Of a stretch of 29,082 nt of DNA, positions 1,983 to 16,961 are shown piece after piece. The DNA is from a virus: positions 1 to 29,082 of IMG/VR virus record IMGVR_UViG_3300030060_007476. The stretch is one strand, 5' to 3'. Numbering within the stretch: position 1 is the first letter of the stretch; each line of letters begins with the position of its first letter. The notes under the pieces are model-generated. The model was not told the origin of the DNA. It saw only the letters and a program-made list of their open reading frames with translations, and searched no databases. The translations under genes were made by a program, and so were the position numbers.

Positions 1983-4301
1983 ATGAAACAATTAACTGAA
2001 TATCTTGTTGACCAAATTTTATTAGAAGATTCTAATATTAAAAACATAGTTGCTATCTATCCTGGTAGGTTTCAACCTATGGGAGCTCATCATGCAAAAA
2101 CATATAGGTTTCTTAAGTCAAAATTTAGTGATGCCTATGTAGCAACAAGTGGCAAAGTTGACCTTCCAAAATCACCATTCTCATTCGCAGAAAAAAAGAA
2201 AATAATTAAGTCTCATGGTATATCTAAAGTTGTACAAGTAAAAAGCCCTTATAAGGCAGAAGAAATACTTAAAAAGTATGACCCTAAAACTACTGCAGCC
2301 GTATTTATGTTTGGCAAAAAAGATGCTGGAAGATTAAAAGGTAAGTTTTTTAGGCCATGGAAAGGTAAAGCTGAAGTTGGATATAAAGATGGTGCATATA
2401 TACTAGAAGCTCCACATGTAAGTATGAATGTACCTGGATATGGTGAAATGAGTGGTACTGCGATTAGAAAAGCATTAGGTGATACTTCAATAGATAAAAA
2501 AGAAAAATTAAAAATATTTAAGGGTATATTTGGTCATACTAAAAATTATGATTTAATCGTTAGTAAACTAGAAAAGCTTAATGAATCTATATTAGAATTC
2601 TGTAAAAATATAAACTTTTCAGAACTAATAGCAGAAATATCTGTCAATCAAACAACAGGAGCAGAAGTTGATGATGGACCACCAACATATTTTATTACGC
2701 CAAAGGGATATGAAAAACAAGGCAAAACATTTGCAGAAATGGTTGGCTATGAAGTACTTGATTATATTATAGGAGATGATTCTAATATCCTAGATTTAGC
2801 TAAAGATGAAAATACTGGAGACTATTCTCAAGGCGTAACATACTTCCCTGCAGGAGTTGCAGGTGTGGGTACACCAACAAATATAAATGACTATAAAGAA
2901 ACAAAAGCATATTCAAACTGGAAATCAAGAATTACAAAAGTTGCACAAGTTGCAGGTATGAAGTTTATAGATTTTATGGGTGCTGAATCTTCTAAAGAGA
3001 AGAAAAATGTAAGTGGCGATTCGATAAAAGAACCTAATAAGTTTGAAAAACAACCAAAAAATATACAAGAAAATTTAGGTCAATGGTTAGCTAATCAAAT
3101 ATTACTAGTTGAAGGTGGAGCTTATGGTCACATGTCACATCCTTTTGATGATAAAGGACTTACGTTCGGAGACTTCAAAAATATTATTGATTTAGCTTTA
3201 CAAGGAAATCTAGACTTAGAACAATCAGCTACTGAAAAAACAGATGGTCAAAATCTATTTATTAGTTGGAATGATAAAATGCTAGCAGCTAGAAATACTG
3301 GAGACTTAAAACGTGGTGGTATGGACTATAAGGCAGTTGCAACAAAGTTTAAGGGTAGAGGAAACATTGAAAAAGCATTTACTTTTGCCATGAAAGACTT
3401 AGCAAAAGCGATAGGTAGTCTTTCACCAAAACAACAAGATAAAATATTTAATAAAGGTAATCATTGGGTAAACATGGAAATTATGTTTCCTGCATCTGCA
3501 AATGTAATTACTTATGACGCTCCATATTTACAGTTTCATAATGTATTAAAATATAAAGATGGTAAAGCTATTGGTGCAGTAAGAGATGGAGCAAGAATAC
3601 TTGCAGGTATGATAGCTCAAGTTAACCAAAAAGTACAAAAGAATTTTTCTATTATAGGTCCTAAAGTCCTTAAGATGAATCCAAGTCAAGACTATTCGGC
3701 AAAAAAACCTTACTTTACTAGTAAGTTAAATAGACTTATGAAAAAGTATAATATGAAAGATACTTCTACATTTGCAGAATATCACCAAGCCTGGTGGGAA
3801 GATTTTGTCGACAAAAATATTAAAGGCATAGATAATAAAACTAAAATGGGTCTTGTTAAGCGTTGGGCATTTTCTGATAAGTCTTTTAGATTAGATAAAA
3901 AGACACTACCAAATGAAGAAACTCTTAAAAAAGCAAAAGAGTTTGATAAAATGAAACATGCAGACCAGGTAAAAAAGAATATGTTACCTTTTGAATTATT
4001 ATTTTTTGAATTAGGTGCAGAAGTTCTTAAAAATGTAGAAGGCTTTTTAGCTGCAAATCCTGATAAAGCAATACAAAATATAAGAAAACAAGTAGCAAAA
4101 GCTATTAGTGATGTTAGAAAAGGTGGAGACCTTAAAAAATTAAACAGAATGACTCAACAGTTAAAAAAGATAGCTTCAATTGGAGGTTTTAAGACTATAA
4201 TTCCTAGTGAAGGTCTAGTTTTTATATACAAAGGAAAAACATACAAATTAACAGGAGCATTTGCACCGGTAAACCAAATTACTGGTATGATGACGTTTTA
4301 A
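1983..4301 (+). CDS. Multidomain nucleotidylyltransferase / KxDG nucleic-acid ligase-like protein, putative virion polyprotein
   Basis: 772 residues. Residues 20-200 form a cytidylyltransferase-like (NMN adenylyltransferase type) domain: AIYPGRFQPMGAHH at 24-37 is the HxGH region and MSGTAIRKAL at 156-165 is the ISSTxxR-type motif. Residues 233-335 are a middle region I do not recognise. Residues 378-772 resemble the covalent nucleotidyltransferase superfamily (RNA/DNA ligases, capping enzymes): motif I EKTDG with Lys419, RNTGD at 437-441, NMEIMFP with Glu499, EGLVF at 743-747 (motif IV) and YKLTG at 754-758 (motif V). The N-terminus (LTEYLVDQILLED) resembles the T4 Alt targeting peptide, and similar segments recur at 212-219 (FSELIAEI) and 364-379 (NLGQWLANQILLVEGG). 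LVE|GG at 375-379 fits the gp21 cleavage consensus. Domain calls are good; packaging, cleavage and substrate are inference. Confidence 0.85.
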   Translation: MKQLTEYLVDQILLEDSNIKNIVAIYPGRFQPMGAHHAKTYRFLKSKFSDAYVATSGKVDLPKSPFSFAEKKKIIKSHGISKVVQVKSPYKAEEILKKYDPKTTAAVFMFGKKDAGRLKGKFFRPWKGKAEVGYKDGAYILEAPHVSMNVPGYGEMSGTAIRKALGDTSIDKKEKLKIFKGIFGHTKNYDLIVSKLEKLNESILEFCKNINFSELIAEISVNQTTGAEVDDGPPTYFITPKGYEKQGKTFAEMVGYEVLDYIIGDDSNILDLAKDENTGDYSQGVTYFPAGVAGVGTPTNINDYKETKAYSNWKSRITKVAQVAGMKFIDFMGAESSKEKKNVSGDSIKEPNKFEKQPKNIQENLGQWLANQILLVEGGAYGHMSHPFDDKGLTFGDFKNIIDLALQGNLDLEQSATEKTDGQNLFISWNDKMLAARNTGDLKRGGMDYKAVATKFKGRGNIEKAFTFAMKDLAKAIGSLSPKQQDKIFNKGNHWVNMEIMFPASANVITYDAPYLQFHNVLKYKDGKAIGAVRDGARILAGMIAQVNQKVQKNFSIIGPKVLKMNPSQDYSAKKPYFTSKLNRLMKKYNMKDTSTFAEYHQAWWEDFVDKNIKGIDNKTKMGLVKRWAFSDKSFRLDKKTLPNEETLKKAKEFDKMKHADQVKKNMLPFELLFFELGAEVLKNVEGFLAANPDKAIQNIRKQVAKAISDVRKGGDLKKLNRMTQQLKKIASIGGFKTIIPSEGLVFIYKGKTYKLTGAFAPVNQITGMMTF

Positions 4302-6208: not shown

Positions 6209-7783
6209 ATGAGACAAAAACAATCTCTTAAGCAAATAATTAAGCAAGAATATACTAGATGTGCTTCGGATCCCGTATACTTTATGAAAAAGTATTGCCA
6301 GATCCAACATCCAACGAGGGGTAGAATACCATTCAAACTATACCCTTTTCAAGAACAAAGTTTAGAAGATTTATCTGACCATGACTATAATATTATACTG
6401 AAGTCTAGGCAGTTAGGTATATCTACTCTATCTGCAGGATATTCTTTATGGTTAATGTTGTTTCAAGAAGATAAAAATGTACTTGTAATTGCAACTAAAC
6501 AAGAGGTTGCAAAAAACCTGGTAACTAAGGTTAGAGAAATGCATAACTATTTACCGAGCTGGTTAAAAGGAACAACAGTAGAAGACAATAAACTTTCATT
6601 AAGATTTAAGAATGGATCTCAAATAAAGGCTGTTTCTAGTTCTGGAGATGCAGGTAGATCTGAAGCACTTTCATTATTAGTAATAGATGAGGCCGCATTT
6701 ATAGATAAGATTGATGAAATATGGGCATCTGCTCAACAAACTCTTGCAACAGGTGGTAAAGCTATAATTCTTTCAACACCAAACGGAACAGGTAACTTCT
6801 TTCATAAAACATGGGTAGCAGCTGAAGAAAATAGAAATAAATTTAATACTATTAGACTGCATTGGAGTTTACATCCTGAAAGAGACCAGGTGTGGAGAAA
6901 TGAACAAGAACAATTACTTGGTGCAAAAATGGCCGCACAAGAATGTGACTGTGACTTTGTATCTTCAGGTAATACTGTAATTGAAGGACAAACAGTTCAA
7001 TGGTATAAAGATACCTATATGCAAGAACCTGTTGAAAGAAGAGGTAGATCTGGAGAATATTGGGTTTGGGAATATCCAGATTATTCTAAGGATTATATGG
7101 TAATAGCAGACGTAGCTAGAGGAGATGGAACAGATTTTTCTACTTTTCAGGTTATGGATATAGATAACGTTACCCAGGTTGCAGAATTTAGAGGTCAATT
7201 AACTCCTAAAGACTTTGGTAATATGTTAGTCACTGTTGCAACAGAATATAATGAGGCTTTACTAGTAATAGAAAATGCGAGTGTAGGTTTTGGAGCAATT
7301 CAAAGTGCAATAGATAGACAGTATAAAAATTTATATTATACATATAAGCAAGACGGTGTAACAGACGCAACAACACAAATACAAAAAGGTTATGATTTGA
7401 AAGATAAAAGTCAAATGACTCCAGGATTTACAACATCTAGTAAAACCAGGCCACTTTTAATTTCGAAACTTGATATTTATTTTAGAGAAAGATCGCTAAT
7501 CGTCAGGTCAACAAGACTACTTGACGAGCTAGCTGTATTTATCTGGAAGGGACATAGAGCAGAAGCTCAAAAAGGATATAACGACGACTTAGTAATGGCG
7601 TTAGGTATAGGACTTTGGGTTAGAGATACTGCTCTCAAGCTTAGAAATGACGGTATCAATTTGAGTAAAAATGCCATAGATAATATTGGCAGAAGTGATG
7701 GAATGTATACTCAAACTGAACATAAAGATTGGAAATGGGATACTCCAGGTGGTGGAGAAGATTTGACATGGTTAATTAAATAG
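6209..7783 (+). CDS. gp17: Terminase large subunit (T4 gp17-like)
   Basis: 524 residues, the DNA-packaging motor ATPase and nuclease. ATPase motifs: Walker A region KSRQLGIST at 65-73, Walker B LLVIDE at 156-161, coupling motif LSTPNG at 188-193. RNase H-fold nuclease motifs: IADVARGDG with Asp301, LLVIEN with Glu355, and NDD with Asp459/Asp460. The Walker A has Ile71 where T4 gp17 has the invariant Lys (SRQLGKTT), but Lys65 and Arg67 lie upstream, as in a known variant terminase P-loop. The N-terminus has the usual 'YFMKKYCQIQHP...LYPFQ' entry. It is somewhat shorter than T4 gp17 (610). No Shine-Dalgarno precedes the ATG; the frame has no upstream ATG before the stop at 6164. Followed after 10 bases by the portal gene. 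Confidence 0.95.
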   Translation: MRQKQSLKQIIKQEYTRCASDPVYFMKKYCQIQHPTRGRIPFKLYPFQEQSLEDLSDHDYNIILKSRQLGISTLSAGYSLWLMLFQEDKNVLVIATKQEVAKNLVTKVREMHNYLPSWLKGTTVEDNKLSLRFKNGSQIKAVSSSGDAGRSEALSLLVIDEAAFIDKIDEIWASAQQTLATGGKAIILSTPNGTGNFFHKTWVAAEENRNKFNTIRLHWSLHPERDQVWRNEQEQLLGAKMAAQECDCDFVSSGNTVIEGQTVQWYKDTYMQEPVERRGRSGEYWVWEYPDYSKDYMVIADVARGDGTDFSTFQVMDIDNVTQVAEFRGQLTPKDFGNMLVTVATEYNEALLVIENASVGFGAIQSAIDRQYKNLYYTYKQDGVTDATTQIQKGYDLKDKSQMTPGFTTSSKTRPLLISKLDIYFRERSLIVRSTRLLDELAVFIWKGHRAEAQKGYNDDLVMALGIGLWVRDTALKLRNDGINLSKNAIDNIGRSDGMYTQTEHKDWKWDTPGGGEDLTWLIK

Positions 7784-7793
7784 GGAAAATAAA

Positions 7794-9620
7794 ATGGCAG
7801 ACAAAACATTATTTGGAAGATTAAAAAAGATTTTAGGTCAATCAGCTGTAGTTAGAAGAGTTGGTGATAATAAATTAAAAGTAATAGATCCAGCACGAGC
7901 ACAATCAGCAGGTAATTTAGAAACTAACATGTTGATTGATAGATATAATAGACTTCACTCTACTCCAGGTGGTAAAGGTGTATATGACCCTAGCCAAGGA
8001 TTCAATCAGCTTAGAAATGAGCTGTTTAAGGATTATGAAGCTATGGACAATGACTCTATAATTTCAGCTGCACTGGATATTTATGCAGATGAATCAACAT
8101 TAAAAAATGAGTTTGGAGATATACTAGAAATTAAAAGTGGTAAGAAAGAGATACAACAAATATTACATAATCTTTTTTACGATGTGTTAAATGTTGAGTT
8201 TAATTTATATCCTTGGATTAGAATGATGTGTAAGTATGGAGACTTTTACCTTCAATTACATATTGTTGAAAAACTAGGAGTTGTAGGTTGTAATCCACTT
8301 TCTCCATACGCAGTTTCAAGACAAGAAGGTATAGATCCAGAAAGACCAGAAGCTGTTGAGTTTCAGTATGATGAAACTTACGGTGGAGTTGTTGGAGCTT
8401 ATGGTAAAAGTAAAAATGGAAATAAAATATTTGAAAATTATGAAGTTGCACACTTTAGATTATTACAAGATACAAACTTTTTACCATACGGAAAGTCAAT
8501 GATAGAAATGCCAAGAAAAACTTGGAAACAATTAACTCTTATGGAAGACGCTATGATGATTCATAGAATTATGCGTGCACCACAAAAGAGAGCTTTTAAG
8601 ATAGATATTGGAAATATTCCACCTGCAGAGGTAGATGCTTACATGCAGAAGGTAATAAATAAAATGAAAAAAGTACCGTATATGGATAAAAATACGGGTG
8701 ACTACAATATGAAATTCAACATACAAAACATGATTGAAGACTTTTATTTACCTGTTAGAGGTGGAAACTCTAATACTTCTATCGAAGATATAGGTGGATT
8801 AGAATGGACAGGCGTAGATGATGTAGAATATTTAAGAAACAGAATGATGGCAGGTCTTAGAGTACCTAAAGCATTTTTAGGCTATGATGAAAATGTAGAA
8901 GGTAAAGCTACTCTAGCTGCAGAAGATGTTAGATTTGCAAGAACAATAGAAAGAATCCAAAGAATTTTTGTTTCAGAACTAACTAAAATAGCAATTGTAC
9001 ATCTATATTCTCAAGGATATACTGATGAAGACCTTGTTGACTTTAGTTTAACTCTTACAAACCCATCAACTATAGCAGAACAAGAAAAATTAGATGTATT
9101 TGATAAGAAGGTATCTCTTGCAGATTCAATAAAGAATAATAAAATGTTATCTGAAGATTGGGTATATGAAAATATATGGAAGATGAGTAAAGATGAAGTA
9201 GAACTTGAACGAGAAAAAGTTATTGAAGATATTATACAAGTCTACAGACAAGATATGATTCAGCAAGAAGGTAAAGACCCTGCAAAGGCAGAAGATGAAA
9301 TAGCTGAAAAAATAAAAAAGAAAAATAGGGCTACACTATCTTCATCTGGAGATACTAGAAAAACTAGAGGCGGTAAAGACGATAGTGATGTTGGAAGACC
9401 TGAAGAAGATGTAGATTATGGTACTCAAAGAGCTCCAAGAGGTAGAGATCCTTTAGGAAATGAAACAAGAGTTCGAGATGTAAAGAATAGAGATAGAAGC
9501 ATTAAGTTCGCAGCTAAAGAAGTTGTAAATATGTTGAAAAACGACAAAAAAGTTGCACTAAATGAAAAATCTATGCTTGACGAGAACAATCTATTGTCAG
9601 AAGAAGATACAAAGGAGTAA
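7794..9620 (+). CDS. gp20: Portal vertex protein (T4 gp20-like)
   Basis: 608 residues; T4 gp20 is 524. The portal dodecamer nucleates head assembly and is the DNA channel to which gp17 docks. The N-terminus (FGRLKKILGQS), DYEAMDNDSIISAALDIYAD, the YGDFYLQLH strand, PYGKSMIEMPRKTWKQL, and the long stem helix region (LMEDAMMIHRIMRAPQKRAF) are the recognisable gp20 core. DDVEYLRNRMMAGLRVPKAF followed by LGYD is the typical C-terminal crown entry. The last 90 residues are a charged, low-complexity tail (RAPRGRDPLGNETRVRD) that accounts for part of the extra length. It follows gp17 at 10 bases with an AGGGAAAA ribosome binding site. Confidence 0.93.
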   Translation: MADKTLFGRLKKILGQSAVVRRVGDNKLKVIDPARAQSAGNLETNMLIDRYNRLHSTPGGKGVYDPSQGFNQLRNELFKDYEAMDNDSIISAALDIYADESTLKNEFGDILEIKSGKKEIQQILHNLFYDVLNVEFNLYPWIRMMCKYGDFYLQLHIVEKLGVVGCNPLSPYAVSRQEGIDPERPEAVEFQYDETYGGVVGAYGKSKNGNKIFENYEVAHFRLLQDTNFLPYGKSMIEMPRKTWKQLTLMEDAMMIHRIMRAPQKRAFKIDIGNIPPAEVDAYMQKVINKMKKVPYMDKNTGDYNMKFNIQNMIEDFYLPVRGGNSNTSIEDIGGLEWTGVDDVEYLRNRMMAGLRVPKAFLGYDENVEGKATLAAEDVRFARTIERIQRIFVSELTKIAIVHLYSQGYTDEDLVDFSLTLTNPSTIAEQEKLDVFDKKVSLADSIKNNKMLSEDWVYENIWKMSKDEVELEREKVIEDIIQVYRQDMIQQEGKDPAKAEDEIAEKIKKKNRATLSSSGDTRKTRGGKDDSDVGRPEEDVDYGTQRAPRGRDPLGNETRVRDVKNRDRSIKFAAKEVVNMLKNDKKVALNEKSMLDENNLLSEEDTKE

Positions 9621-11933: not shown

Positions 11934-12566
11934 ATGACTAATAAACAATTATTGATAGATTATACACTTTTCGATGTTTCTCCGCAGATGATTACAGAAT
12001 CTGAGGCTAATAACAATGGAAGAGTTGTTGTACAAGGAGTTCTACAAAGAGCTGGTGCAAAGAATCAAAACGGTAGAATATACCCTAAAGATATTCTTAT
12101 GCGAGAAGTGAAATCATATAAGAAGGTTCAAATAGCCGAAAAAAGAGCTTTAGGTGAGTTAGACCATCCAGAGTCTTCTGTTGTCAATCTACAAAATGTT
12201 TCACACAATGTATTAGATGCATTTTTTGAAGGCGATGATGTAGTAGGAAAAGTAGAAATATTAGATACTCCAGCAGGAAAAATACTAAAAGAATTATTAA
12301 AGGCTGGAATAAAGCTAGGAATAAGTAGTAGAGGATTAGGAAGTGTTAATCAAATAGATGAAAACACAGTACAAGTTGGAAATGACTTTGAACTTATATG
12401 TTGGGACTTTGTATCTAACCCTTCAACACATGGAGCTTTTATGAAGCCAACATCAATAACAGAATCAGTAAATAAAGCTCTAGTTAGTGAATGGGAATCA
12501 TGTGATAAGTATTGCAAGGTTAACTCTATAATTAGAGAAATATTAGTAGATATGGAGATTAAATAA
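11934..12566 (+). CDS. gp21: Prohead core protease (T4 gp21-like, peptidase U35 type)
   Basis: 210 residues, close to T4 gp21 (212). The serine protease matures the prohead by cleaving gp23, the gp22 core and internal proteins after (L/I)xE. GRVVVQGVLQRAGAKNQNGR, then IYP (residues 29-51), is the family's opening strand region. RALGELDHP places the catalytic His at residue 78, and LGISSRGLGSV places the catalytic Ser at 131/132. ELICWDFVSNPSTHGAFM is the typical C-terminal core. MITE|S at 19-23 could be a self-processing site. Its presence shows that the (L/I)xE sites noted in neighbouring proteins have a matching enzyme. The stop overlaps the next start (TAATG). Confidence 0.95.
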   Translation: MTNKQLLIDYTLFDVSPQMITESEANNNGRVVVQGVLQRAGAKNQNGRIYPKDILMREVKSYKKVQIAEKRALGELDHPESSVVNLQNVSHNVLDAFFEGDDVVGKVEILDTPAGKILKELLKAGIKLGISSRGLGSVNQIDENTVQVGNDFELICWDFVSNPSTHGAFMKPTSITESVNKALVSEWESCDKYCKVNSIIREILVDMEIK

Positions 12567-12924: not shown

Positions 12925-13578
12925 ATGAAACTTAGAAAAATATTAGCAGAATCTAAATTAGCTCCAGAACAAAAGAAAACATTCTTAGAGGCTATGTCAA
13001 AATTTAATGAATATGGTAAACACATATACAGAGAATCAGAACTTAGGTCTATTATAGAAAATATGGAAACTTTAATGTCTGGCGCAAGCAACTTTATTAT
13101 TGATGAATCAGATGATTGGTTTGATTCTGTAACTATAAAAAGAGACTCTAAAGATATAAATAATACAGCGAAGGCTTTCACCAAAACTGCTAGAGAAATG
13201 GTTGGAATGCAGCATAGGTTAGAATCTTTGTATGAAGACTTAGGAAATAAACTTGGTAGATATTATGACTTAGGTGAAGCTATGGATCCAGTTGGTAAAG
13301 AAGATGGCGATATAGATAATGACGGTGATAAAGATGGAACTGATAAGTATCTTATGAATAGAAGAAAAGCTATAGGCAAATCTATGAAAAATGAAGCTGC
13401 GCCTAGAATGAAAACTAGTAGACATCGAAAAGAACTTGACCAAGCTATGCAATCTATAATTAGAGCTCAAAATATGATGGCTATTGATATGCCTGGACCT
13501 TACAAGAGAGTTGATAAGGCCTTTAAGCAGATAAAAAAGCAATTTATGAAGTTTAAGGGATTGGTTAATATAGCATAA
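12925..13578 (+). CDS. Putative capsid-internal protein with EF-hand/dockerin-like calcium loop
   Basis: 217 residues. The N-terminus MKLRKILAESKLAPEQ has the short basic helix followed by LAE|S that T4 internal proteins show (FIAE|A), so gp21 trimming after Glu9 is plausible. The middle is helical. Residues 129-140 (DIDNDGDKDGTD) fit a 12-residue EF-hand/dockerin loop with Asp at positions 1, 3, 5, 9 and 12 and Gly at 6, preceded by MDPVGKEDG and followed by KYLMNRRKAIG; I have seen this module in other phage proteins. The C-terminal 60 residues are basic and helical (FKQIKKQFMKFKGLVNIA), suited to contact with DNA or the core. AAGGAG lies before the ATG. A terminator follows. Function unknown; calcium binding is inferred. 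Confidence 0.7.
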   Translation: MKLRKILAESKLAPEQKKTFLEAMSKFNEYGKHIYRESELRSIIENMETLMSGASNFIIDESDDWFDSVTIKRDSKDINNTAKAFTKTAREMVGMQHRLESLYEDLGNKLGRYYDLGEAMDPVGKEDGDIDNDGDKDGTDKYLMNRRKAIGKSMKNEAAPRMKTSRHRKELDQAMQSIIRAQNMMAIDMPGPYKRVDKAFKQIKKQFMKFKGLVNIA

Positions 13579-13679: not shown

Positions 13680-14021
13680 ATGCAAAGAAACAACTACAAA
13701 AAAGACTTCAAGAAGAGGCCATTCAAGAAGCGTCACACTAGAGCCGATTTTTATTTAGAAGGATGTCCTGAAGGTGTTAAGGTACCAGATGGAGATTCAG
13801 GAACTCTAGAAAGAGCCATGAAATATCTAAAGCGCCAGCTAAAAGATTCAGAGAAATTATTTCTATATAAAAATAGAAGATACTATGAAAAACCTTCTCA
13901 TACTAAGAGAGTAAAAATGCAGAGAGCTAAAGCAATGCAAAAAAGAGCTCATGCAATACAAGAGAGAAAGTATGGAAAGAATCAATGTTGGCTTGTCATG
14001 ACAGACAAAGGAGCAAAATAA
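13680..14021 (+). CDS. rpsU: Ribosomal protein bS21 homologue
   Basis: 113 residues. The core at about 34-90 matches bacterial small-subunit protein S21: VKVPDGDSGTLERAMKYLKR, then the charged helix, then RRYYEKPSHTKRVKMQRA with the diagnostic (R)xYEKPS motif, and a basic helix (KAMQKRAHAIQERKYGK). Cellular bS21 is about 60-75 residues; here there is a basic N-terminal extension (KKDFKKRPFKKRHTR) and a C-terminal tail (CWLVMTDKGAK). bS21 sits at the 30S platform near the anti-Shine-Dalgarno region, so a phage copy could bias initiation toward phage mRNAs. bS21 genes are known in phages, including a SAR11 phage. The gene stands alone between two terminators, a moron-like arrangement. Confidence 0.85.
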   Translation: MQRNNYKKDFKKRPFKKRHTRADFYLEGCPEGVKVPDGDSGTLERAMKYLKRQLKDSEKLFLYKNRRYYEKPSHTKRVKMQRAKAMQKRAHAIQERKYGKNQCWLVMTDKGAK

Positions 14022-15353: not shown

Positions 15354-16961
15354 ATGGAAAGTATTAACAACCTATTAACAGATGCAGGTGCAGCTCATAG
15401 AAAGCAACTTGACGAAGCAAGAGCACTTACATCAAAATGGGAAAATACTGGTTTATTAGAAGGTATCGGAAATGAGTATGAAAAGTCAGGAATGGCTGTT
15501 CTTTTAGAAAACCAAGCTCGTCAGTTAATCGATGAAAATTCGAGAACTAACAGAGCTGGTGCTAATGCTGAAGAATGGTCTGGTGTGGCTCTTCCACTTG
15601 TTCGAAGAATTTTTGGTGAAATAGCTGCAAAAGATTTTGTATCTGTTCAACCAATGAACCTTCCATCTGGACTTGTATTTTTCTTAGACTTCAAATATGG
15701 AACTGATAAGGCTAACAACGGGTTTACACAAAACACGGATATTATGGGTCTTACTTCAGCTTCAGGCGAATCTACTGGAGGTCTTTACGGACAAGGTAAA
15801 TTCGGATATTCAATGAACGCAACTAGTCAAGTAGTAACTGTTAAGTCTGCTTCAGCTACGTGGGCTGACGTTGATTATGATTCAGATCTATCTGCATCAG
15901 TAGCAGCAGGAACTGTATATGTAGTTTCTTGTTCTGTTTCTGACTTTACTAGACCTGACTTAGAAGGTGTTAAAGCGTTCAGATTCGTATCTGGATCGTT
16001 ATTAACAGAAGCTATGAACCAACCAGCTTACACTAAATTAACTGATGATGAAAGATCTATTTCATTTATTTTAAGTACTGGTGGTGCAACATTACCTATC
16101 GTTCATAACGATGCTGCAGGTAATATTGTTCACTTCTATCAGCAACCAACTGCTGCAACAAGAGGTGATTTTGAAGATACTTCAGGAGCAGATATTTCTA
16201 TTCCAGAAGTAAATGTTGAATTAAGATCTGAGACTATCGTTGCTAAGACACGTAAGTTGAAAGCAGTATGGTCTCCAGAATTTGCTCAAGACTTGAACGC
16301 TTACCACAGTATTGACGCTGAGGCTGAGTTAACTTCAATGTTATCTGAGTATATTTCAATGGAAATCGATCTTGAAATTTTATCAATGTTATCTGAAAAT
16401 GCTCTAACTACAGAGTACTGGTCAGCTACAATTGGTGAAACTCACGATGGTACTACTGACAATGGTGAAGCAGACTGGACGGCAGGCGCTGCTGCAGCTG
16501 CATACAACCAAGGTACATGGTTCCAAACTTTAGGTACTAAAATCCAAAAAGTTTCGAACAAAATCCACGCAAAAACAATGAGAGGTGGAGCAAACTTCTT
16601 AGTTTGTGGACCAGAAGTTGCAACAATCTTAGAATCTATTCCAGGATATGCTGCAGATACTGATGGTAACCAATCATCATTTGCAATGGGTGTACAAAAA
16701 GTTGGTGCACTAAACAACAGATTTACAGTTTACAAAAACCCATACATCCAAAAGGATGAAATTATTATGGGCTTTAGAGGAACTCAGTTCCTTGAAACTG
16801 GTGCTGTTTATGCTCCATACGTACCGCTAATTATGACTCCTTTAGTATACGATCCTACAAACTTTACTCCACGTAAAGGTGTAATGACTCGTTATGCTAA
16901 GAAAGTTGTAAGACCAGAATTCTATGGTAAAGTATTTTGTAAAGACGTTGTAAACGTTTAA
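15354..16961 (+). CDS. gp23: Major capsid protein (T4 gp23-like)
   Basis: 535 residues; T4 gp23 is 521. The N-terminal region KWENTGLLEGIG, AVLLENQARQLIDEN parallels T4 'NKWKPLLEGEG...KIFENQEKDF'. A gp21 cleavage site fits after Glu61 (LIDE|NS), near the T4 site (Glu65), giving a mature protein of about 474 residues. The HK97-fold core follows: ALPLVRRIFGEIAAKDFVSV, QPMNLPSGLVFFLDFKYG, the long insertion, VELRSETIVAKTRKLKAVWS and DLNAYHSIDAEAELTSMLSE, and the C-terminal FRGTQFLETGAVYAPYVPL. AGAGGAGAATTCTAA precedes the ATG. Codon choice looks more varied and C-ending than in neighbours, as expected for the most highly expressed gene. A terminator follows. Confidence 0.96.
   Translation: MESINNLLTDAGAAHRKQLDEARALTSKWENTGLLEGIGNEYEKSGMAVLLENQARQLIDENSRTNRAGANAEEWSGVALPLVRRIFGEIAAKDFVSVQPMNLPSGLVFFLDFKYGTDKANNGFTQNTDIMGLTSASGESTGGLYGQGKFGYSMNATSQVVTVKSASATWADVDYDSDLSASVAAGTVYVVSCSVSDFTRPDLEGVKAFRFVSGSLLTEAMNQPAYTKLTDDERSISFILSTGGATLPIVHNDAAGNIVHFYQQPTAATRGDFEDTSGADISIPEVNVELRSETIVAKTRKLKAVWSPEFAQDLNAYHSIDAEAELTSMLSEYISMEIDLEILSMLSENALTTEYWSATIGETHDGTTDNGEADWTAGAAAAAYNQGTWFQTLGTKIQKVSNKIHAKTMRGGANFLVCGPEVATILESIPGYAADTDGNQSSFAMGVQKVGALNNRFTVYKNPYIQKDEIIMGFRGTQFLETGAVYAPYVPLIMTPLVYDPTNFTPRKGVMTRYAKKVVRPEFYGKVFCKDVVNV

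Follow-up and report, generated by a model that had tools for sequence, protein, structure and literature searches.

Polyvalent proteins are single phage polypeptides that combine many enzyme domains of dissimilar kinds, shuffled between phages (Iyer et al. 2017, PMC5512222). Their packaging and injection are presumed, proteolysis has been proposed to set their domains free, and an embedded protease domain occurs in some members, not all (PMC5512222). The terms 'NMNAT', 'adenylyltransferase' and 'capsid targeting' are absent from the text of that study, and 'prohead' occurs only in the title of a reference. IPI-III and Alt of T4 start with a short peptide ending in (L/I)xE, and the prohead protease gp21, whose specificity is L/I-X-E with the cut after Glu, is encoded in the same genome; each of these proteins is a single cargo, and Alt is an enzyme that is delivered with the DNA and cut at both ends (PMC9026906). 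Surveys of phage NAD+ and RNA-repair enzymes cover, in their available text, separate parts of what is described below (PMC9503650, PMC7824862). According to the available text of the former, in other phages the fusion partner of NadM is Nudix and that of NadR a kinase, not a ligase-like domain (PMC9503650), and a fusion of an NMNAT with a ligase was not found described in the available text of either of these openly licensed sources. The closest pairing is found in cyanophages, where a cytidylyltransferase adjoins or is fused with DUF6267 (phrog_455; T4-GC190); an NMNAT-like domain is likewise paired with a KxDG domain, but there the KxDG domain precedes the NMNAT-like one and the two are often separate genes.

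Here we describe a 772-aa protein that is probably, judging from its sequence and that of its relatives, a polyvalent cargo protein with domains separated in trans by the prohead protease. It is encoded in a 29-kb fragment of a T4-like marine phage (IMG/VR record IMGVR_UViG_3300030060_007476), the whole of which (29,082 nucleotides, the window) was analysed; there are 0 Rfam matches and 0 tRNAs in the window. The gene belongs to the head-gene module, where it stands a short way before gp17, and the same fragment encodes an S77 prohead protease (11934-12566). The features referred to below are as follows (all on the plus strand; a bar marks a predicted cut).

1983..4301 (+): gene of the 772-aa putative polyprotein, in the order tag, NMNAT, middle domain, tag, ligase-like domain, stop included (open reading frame, relatives)
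1983..2027 (+): N-terminal tag MKQLTEYLVDQILLE, capsid-targeting-like, residues 1-15, predicted cut after Glu15 (tag conservation)
2028..2636 (+): NMNAT/NadD/NadM/PPAT-like nucleotidyltransferase, residues 16-218 (PDB profile matches, Foldseek)
2628..2639 (+): site 2, IAE218|I219 (conservation vs controls)
2637..3071 (+): middle domain with DDGP at 230-233, residues 219-363 (low-confidence model)
3063..3074 (+): possible cleavage position IQE363|N364, preceding the internal tag
3072..3113 (+): internal tag NLGQWLANQILLVE, residues 364-377 (likeness to N-terminal tags of relatives)
3105..3116 (+): site 3, LVE377|G378 (conservation vs controls)
3114..4298 (+): RNA-ligase-like domain, residues 378-772 (model, Foldseek, motifs)
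3237..3248 (+): KTDG, motif I, predicted nucleophile Lys419 (motif invariant in ligase-domain alignment)
4209..4256 (+): EGLVF (motif IV) and YKLTG (motif V), residues 743-758 (motifs invariant in ligase-domain alignment)
6209..7783 (+): terminase large subunit (gp17), downstream of the polyprotein gene
7794..9620 (+): portal (gp20; PF07230, E 5e-68)
11934..12566 (+): prohead protease (gp21, Peptidase_S77; PF03420, E 1.2e-31), the proposed processing enzyme
15354..16961 (+): major capsid protein (gp23; PF07068, E 6.8e-79)

Positions 1983-4301 form a single open frame of 772 aa, with stops abundant on the opposite strand. The protein was found in 19 viral contigs (65-98% identity; full length in at least 13), and its C-terminal domain has at least 557 relatives. 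A frameshift or pseudogene was rejected, given an uninterrupted frame that relatives conserve. The whole protein has no match in Pfam or PHROGs, nor in the PDB by phmmer, and these Pfam and PHROGs searches found no peptidase domain in it, the protease being a separate gene. Two other genes of the head module may be mentioned. At 12925-13578 (+) lies a protein with a segment GE|[39 residues]|AAP, and similar segments are present in cyanophage proteins (L109, L112, L151). At 13680-14021 (+) lies an open frame resembling ribosomal protein S21 (PF01165, E 7.2e-6, just under the cut-off); in phage Mel-JY01, rpsU is annotated near the prohead protease.

Like polyvalent proteins, this protein contains at least two unlike domains (NMNAT and ligase-like folds) that are shuffled among its relatives; unlike those members with a protease of their own, its cutter would be gp21 acting in trans, with tag peptides as separators. 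Like the T4 cargo processed by gp21, it starts with a peptide ending in (L/I)xE in a genome with an S77 prohead protease, but here the tag recurs between the domains of one chain.

The initial annotation had proposed a NadM-like nucleotidylyltransferase, an unrecognised middle domain and a ligase-like domain, to be checked by structure prediction against NadM/NadR and Rnl-type ligases. The two outer folds were recovered, but the model of the middle domain is of low confidence, and this domain is still without a known family or fold after a profile search. In the N-terminal domain GRFQP (28-32) and SGTxxR (157-162) are kept, as in NadM, NadD and PPAT adenylyltransferases, and the model of residues ~21-209, of good confidence, matches NadD, NadM and PPAT in Foldseek (E 2.6e-4 to 1e-3, prob 1.0); a profile of the domain finds the same families in the PDB. 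A NadD/NadM/PPAT-like Rossmann adenylyltransferase fold is supported by the predicted structure. HxGH, by contrast, is GAHH here, with Gly for the first His throughout the clade; distant relatives (L021, L090) have HRGH or HKGH. NMN is a candidate substrate of this NadM-type domain. A profile of the NMNAT of this family is linked to the cyanophage cytidylyltransferase at E 2.6e-5.

The C-terminal domain, according to its model, moderately resembles RNA ligases. KTDG starts at Lys419, and Glu499, EGLV (743-746) and YKLTG (754-758) likewise lie at the residues first assigned to them. In an alignment of 29 diverse sequences (A4, whose numbering is used here) E48, K49, D51 and G52 are invariant, as are E373, G374, V376, K385, T387 and G388. 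The order KxDG, EGxV, KxTG is that of the RNA ligase / covalent nucleotidyltransferase superfamily. The model of residues 371-772 has a pLDDT of 82.8 and a pTM of 0.79, and its best five Foldseek matches in the PDB are all T4 RNA ligases 1 or 2, at weak E-values (0.015-0.13); in BFVD, phage RNA ligases follow from E 1.3e-3 behind direct relatives and unnamed proteins. Unlike T4 RNA ligases 1 and 2, the domain has its motifs I and IV ~320 residues apart and contains a long helical insert between them. It has no match to a Pfam RNA ligase, and the Pfam model of DUF6267 (PF19782) matches neither the domain nor the 772-aa protein; hhalign relates the domain weakly to DUF6267 (E 0.18), and the fold match to S-PM2 has E 4.8e-3. 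Microcystis phage Mel-JY01 has the NMNAT and the ligase-like domain fused in a 639-aa protein (WWT39297.1), with GGLGGHM at the predicted cut. Divergent proteins with the two domains in reversed order occur in L145 and in L146 (CP070664.1), a 2.8-Mb WOR-3 MAG chromosome. The latter holds one such protein, with no obvious tag, possibly in an integrated element.

Nine (L/I)xE motifs occur in the 772-aa protein. Three of them had been singled out as cleavage sites, LLE13-15|D16, IAE216-218|I219 and LVE375-377|GG (sites 1 to 3, with Glu15, Glu218 and Glu377); they were found at exactly these residues and are the best kept of the nine, with [LIV]xE in 88, 96 and 92% of relatives, respectively. All three fall in low-confidence segments of the model (residues 11-15, 212-307 and 371-382; rows from database records were left out of the structure-model alignments). 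LNE199-201, in a confident helix without an obvious joint, is kept as [LIV]xE in 85% of relatives, the region around IKE348 and IQE361 is unalignable among relatives, and the three remaining motifs are kept in 11-28%. Since E201 is nearly as conserved as the named sites, conservation of (L/I)xE alone is no proof of cutting.

Of 27 relatives, all have I or L at P3 of site 2 and 26 have Glu at P1; P1' is mostly A (12), S (8) or I (3), and the surrounding residues are variable. The pattern [LI]xE|[AGS] occurs no more than 20 residues before the middle domain in 31/47 sequences of a non-redundant set, versus 1.7 in control windows of the same proteins (500 draws, maximum 8) and 3.3 in shuffles. 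Before the ligase domain (site 3) it is present in 29 of 33 sequences of a non-redundant set, compared with 0.8 in controls and 3.6 in shuffles with the following Gly held fixed. In one ligase clade (20 loci) the Glu of site 3 is replaced by Met, and an upstream [LI]xE is found in only nine of these loci, versus 3.0 expected. Site 1 follows a different pattern: Glu15 is kept in 22/27 relatives, but P1' is D, E, N or K instead of A, G or S. The strict pattern is not clearly enriched before the NMNAT (4/25 versus 1.4 expected, non-redundant set), whereas the relaxed [LIVMFW]xE is present in 24/25 (versus 6.4), and 28 of 31 N-terminal tags contain [LI]xE, against 13.6 +/- 2.6 after shuffling. Most relatives thus have A, G or S after the cut at sites 2 and 3, not at site 1; the published rule is only L/I-X-E (PMC9026906). 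All these site counts overstate independence, because the sequences are related. Chance (L/I)xE motifs were ruled out by the control windows and shuffles. Finally, a Glu precedes (S/N)LGxWLANQ in relatives, in a region too gappy to score, and there may be four cuts in the chain, which would release the internal tag (364-377) as well.

The tags behave as movable parts. The likeness noted at the outset between YLVDQILLED at the N-terminus and WLANQILLVEGG within the chain holds across relatives too, the internal tag resembling their N-terminal tags (MSLGNWLAENIIKE and others). One tag type precedes different domains in five loci: MNKLSKWLVDSIVNE stands before an NMNAT (L074), MNKLTKWLTKPFLEE before a KOW-like domain (L068) that also follows a tag in L045, MNKLTKWLVESILTE|A before a domain also known from other cyanophage proteins at 77-79% identity (L051), and MSLKKLVEEITKPIIEE|G before a kinase (L077). 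This junction is retained by the kinase, stand-alone or fused, as E|G. Where it stands alone, in a gene upstream of and overlapping the start of the polyprotein gene (L008, L010, L013, L028, L036), it starts MIKLxDILNE|GVYDPGIFKA (e.g. MIKLVDILNE|GVYDPGIFKA), and in Melnitz MKTFAELQE|GVYDPNIFKA; fused kinases read xxxE|GVNDPGIFKA (e.g. NINE|GVNDPGIFKA). Agrobacterium phage Atu_ph07 has a large protein (L108:1775-4111) with the kinase module behind VTE|GVNDKHIFKA and unrelated flanking domains. Similarly, stand-alone ligase-like proteins start with MIRLKKLLSEVLLNE|GGAYGHM or the like (L086, L100), and the same tag, MIRLKKLLSEVLLNE, is found with its Met inside longer fused proteins (L091, L101).

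In a 410-kb contig (L147, ONIZ01000001.1), 12 of the 22 open frames between 1447 and 9571 start like MKSIxxYIxE, where 0.5 would be expected, and a stand-alone ligase-like gene is one of the twelve. These frames lie near genes that, by eye only, resemble those of a prohead protease and a capsid protein, and they constitute a putative battery of capsid-targeted proteins. A small tagged protein that is found fused elsewhere may have a second example in gp122 of phage Bellamy (L103:1340-1495), which is MKSFKQFQE|SWSNKYKKS and recurs as MNE|GWSDKYKKS within a longer protein of P-TIM68 (L104:1243-2364), beside the major head gene.

Relatives of the 772-aa protein range from 414 to 1907 aa, with modules swapped. 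Their inserts include, by Pfam, a Zeta_toxin/AAA_33 kinase, a polyA-polymerase/CCA head (E 2.3e-29), Nudix (7.9e-12), Zn_protease (PF05618) and DUF5661; a Pol-beta-type transferase module is weakly suggested. A further insert resembles AAT-like Ntn hydrolases (E 6.5e-5 and 1.5e-4, just under the Pfam cut-off), single-sequence searches of Pfam and the PDB and a profile search of the PDB having returned nothing for this module. Ntn hydrolases require a free N-terminal nucleophile. The predicted nucleophile Cys follows a Glu in 26 of the 26 loci fetched and in phage MA9V-2, and Glu-Cys is also present in stand-alone Ntn genes of two contexts (MKMPKNILNE|C and MTSADNNAFINE|C); cutting at this Glu would free the Cys. 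The stand-alone AAT/Ntn-hydrolase-like genes, in which a short N-terminal peptide precedes and the Cys comes after ILNE or FINE, are L138:2980-3849 and L139:1474-2298 (gp239 of Chryseobacterium phage MA9V-2).

Cytidylyltransferases or NMNATs related to the N-terminal enzyme have been found in virions of the cyanophages S-SZBM1 (PMC9146016), S-SCSM1 (PMC9602691), S-CREM2 (PMC10665884) and S-SM1 (T4-GC190, PMC3037559), although virion-associated enzymes may be carry-over according to the authors of one of these studies (PMC10665884). The cytidylyltransferase S-SZBM1_140, a member of the S-SZBM1 virion proteome (PMC9146016), starts MRFRQFIIE|A, like a T4 capsid-targeting peptide, and adjoins a DUF6267-like gene. 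The cytidylyltransferases of S-CAM1 and ACG-2014e are without a tag. In S-PM2 the end of a DUF6267-like protein is joined to the transferase in p142, annotated T4-GC190; this DUF6267-like part is distributed between the annotated genes p141 and p142 (L150:767-2546), an arrangement suggestive of a frameshift or a misplaced gene start.

That the 772-aa protein itself is cleaved, packaged and injected we infer from these patterns. The polyprotein would be made with the head proteins, and its N-terminal tag would serve as a capsid-targeting sequence (CTS) bringing the chain into the prohead core, a role proposed because of its likeness to T4 IPIII and Alt and to tagged relatives. Because the sites are conserved, gp21 is the presumed cutter: cutting after Glu at (L/I)xE, it would remove the N-terminal tag, free the nucleotidyltransferase, middle and ligase-like domains and release the internal tag as a peptide. 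The freed enzymes would remain in the head with the DNA and then enter the host, as is suggested by the related cytidylyltransferases in purified cyanophage virions. There the nucleotidyltransferase could restore NAD+ or a dinucleotide related to it, while damaged RNA could be sealed by the ligase-like domain, so that translation and NAD+ would survive the first minutes of host defence. We infer this tie to host takeover or repair from the kinds of domain present and from the modules (kinase, CCA/polyA polymerase, Nudix, Pol-beta-type) that the chains of relatives contain.

A virion polyprotein cut by gp21 had been the central claim of the initial annotation. In its favour are the conserved sites at the joints, the movable tags, the stand-alone tags inside fusions and the related cytidylyltransferases in virions, but site 1 lacks A, G or S and one clade has Met at site 3. 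This Met, together with the conserved E201 in a helix without an obvious joint, would fit a chain that is never cut and acts in the cell as a whole, bifunctional nucleotidyltransferase-ligase, its conserved Glu residues belonging to the edges of domains or to helices of the linkers; a functional pairing for which cleavage is not needed is likewise indicated by fusions in both orders and by separate genes that adjoin. We nevertheless consider such an enzyme improbable, since Glu is kept in low-confidence linkers whose neighbouring residues vary freely, the same Glu precedes modules that are stand-alone N-termini, and an Ntn hydrolase in need of a free N-terminal Cys always has this Cys after Glu.

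The strong conservation of internal sites 2 and 3, and gp21 in the same genome, also make it unlikely that the protein is packaged uncut or trimmed only at its N-terminus, i.e. that it is a polyvalent protein (Iyer et al. 2017) entering as one chain like the N4 virion RNA polymerase, even though the head-module location and the conserved N-terminal tag would suit this and uncut packaged polypeptides have precedent (PMC5512222). Hardly likely at all is a function outside the virion, in which an auxiliary metabolic protein for NAD+ salvage and RNA repair would act in the cytoplasm at a late or middle stage and its gene would lie beside head genes by chance: the available text of the surveys usually assigns phage NadM/NadR and RNA ligases to the infection phase (PMC9503650, PMC7824862), but the CTS-like tags and the detection of related cytidylyltransferases in virions argue against it.

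Beyond this protein, a cargo chain cut by gp21 may represent a more general scheme, to which we would give an even chance. Capsid-targeting peptides would double as separators in cargo polyproteins of T4-like and related large phages, so that enzyme modules could be inserted behind a tag and cut apart by the prohead protease in the maturing head; some modules, such as Ntn hydrolases with their Glu-Cys joint, would be switched on only by the cut, and a single gene would send a kit for RNA repair and NAD+ along with the genome. If this is true, head maturation doubles as a delivery system, in which the protease that is known to trim shell and scaffold proteins also frees a set of enzymes from one precursor. 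It would explain the repeated presence of NMNAT-like proteins in cyanophage virions, and NAD+ loss and RNA damage would be among the challenges that abundant marine phages meet in the first minutes of infection. The cargo list of a phage could then be read from its sequence by way of tag-like segments, which would provide an annotation rule for the hundreds of long marine phage proteins that lack annotation.
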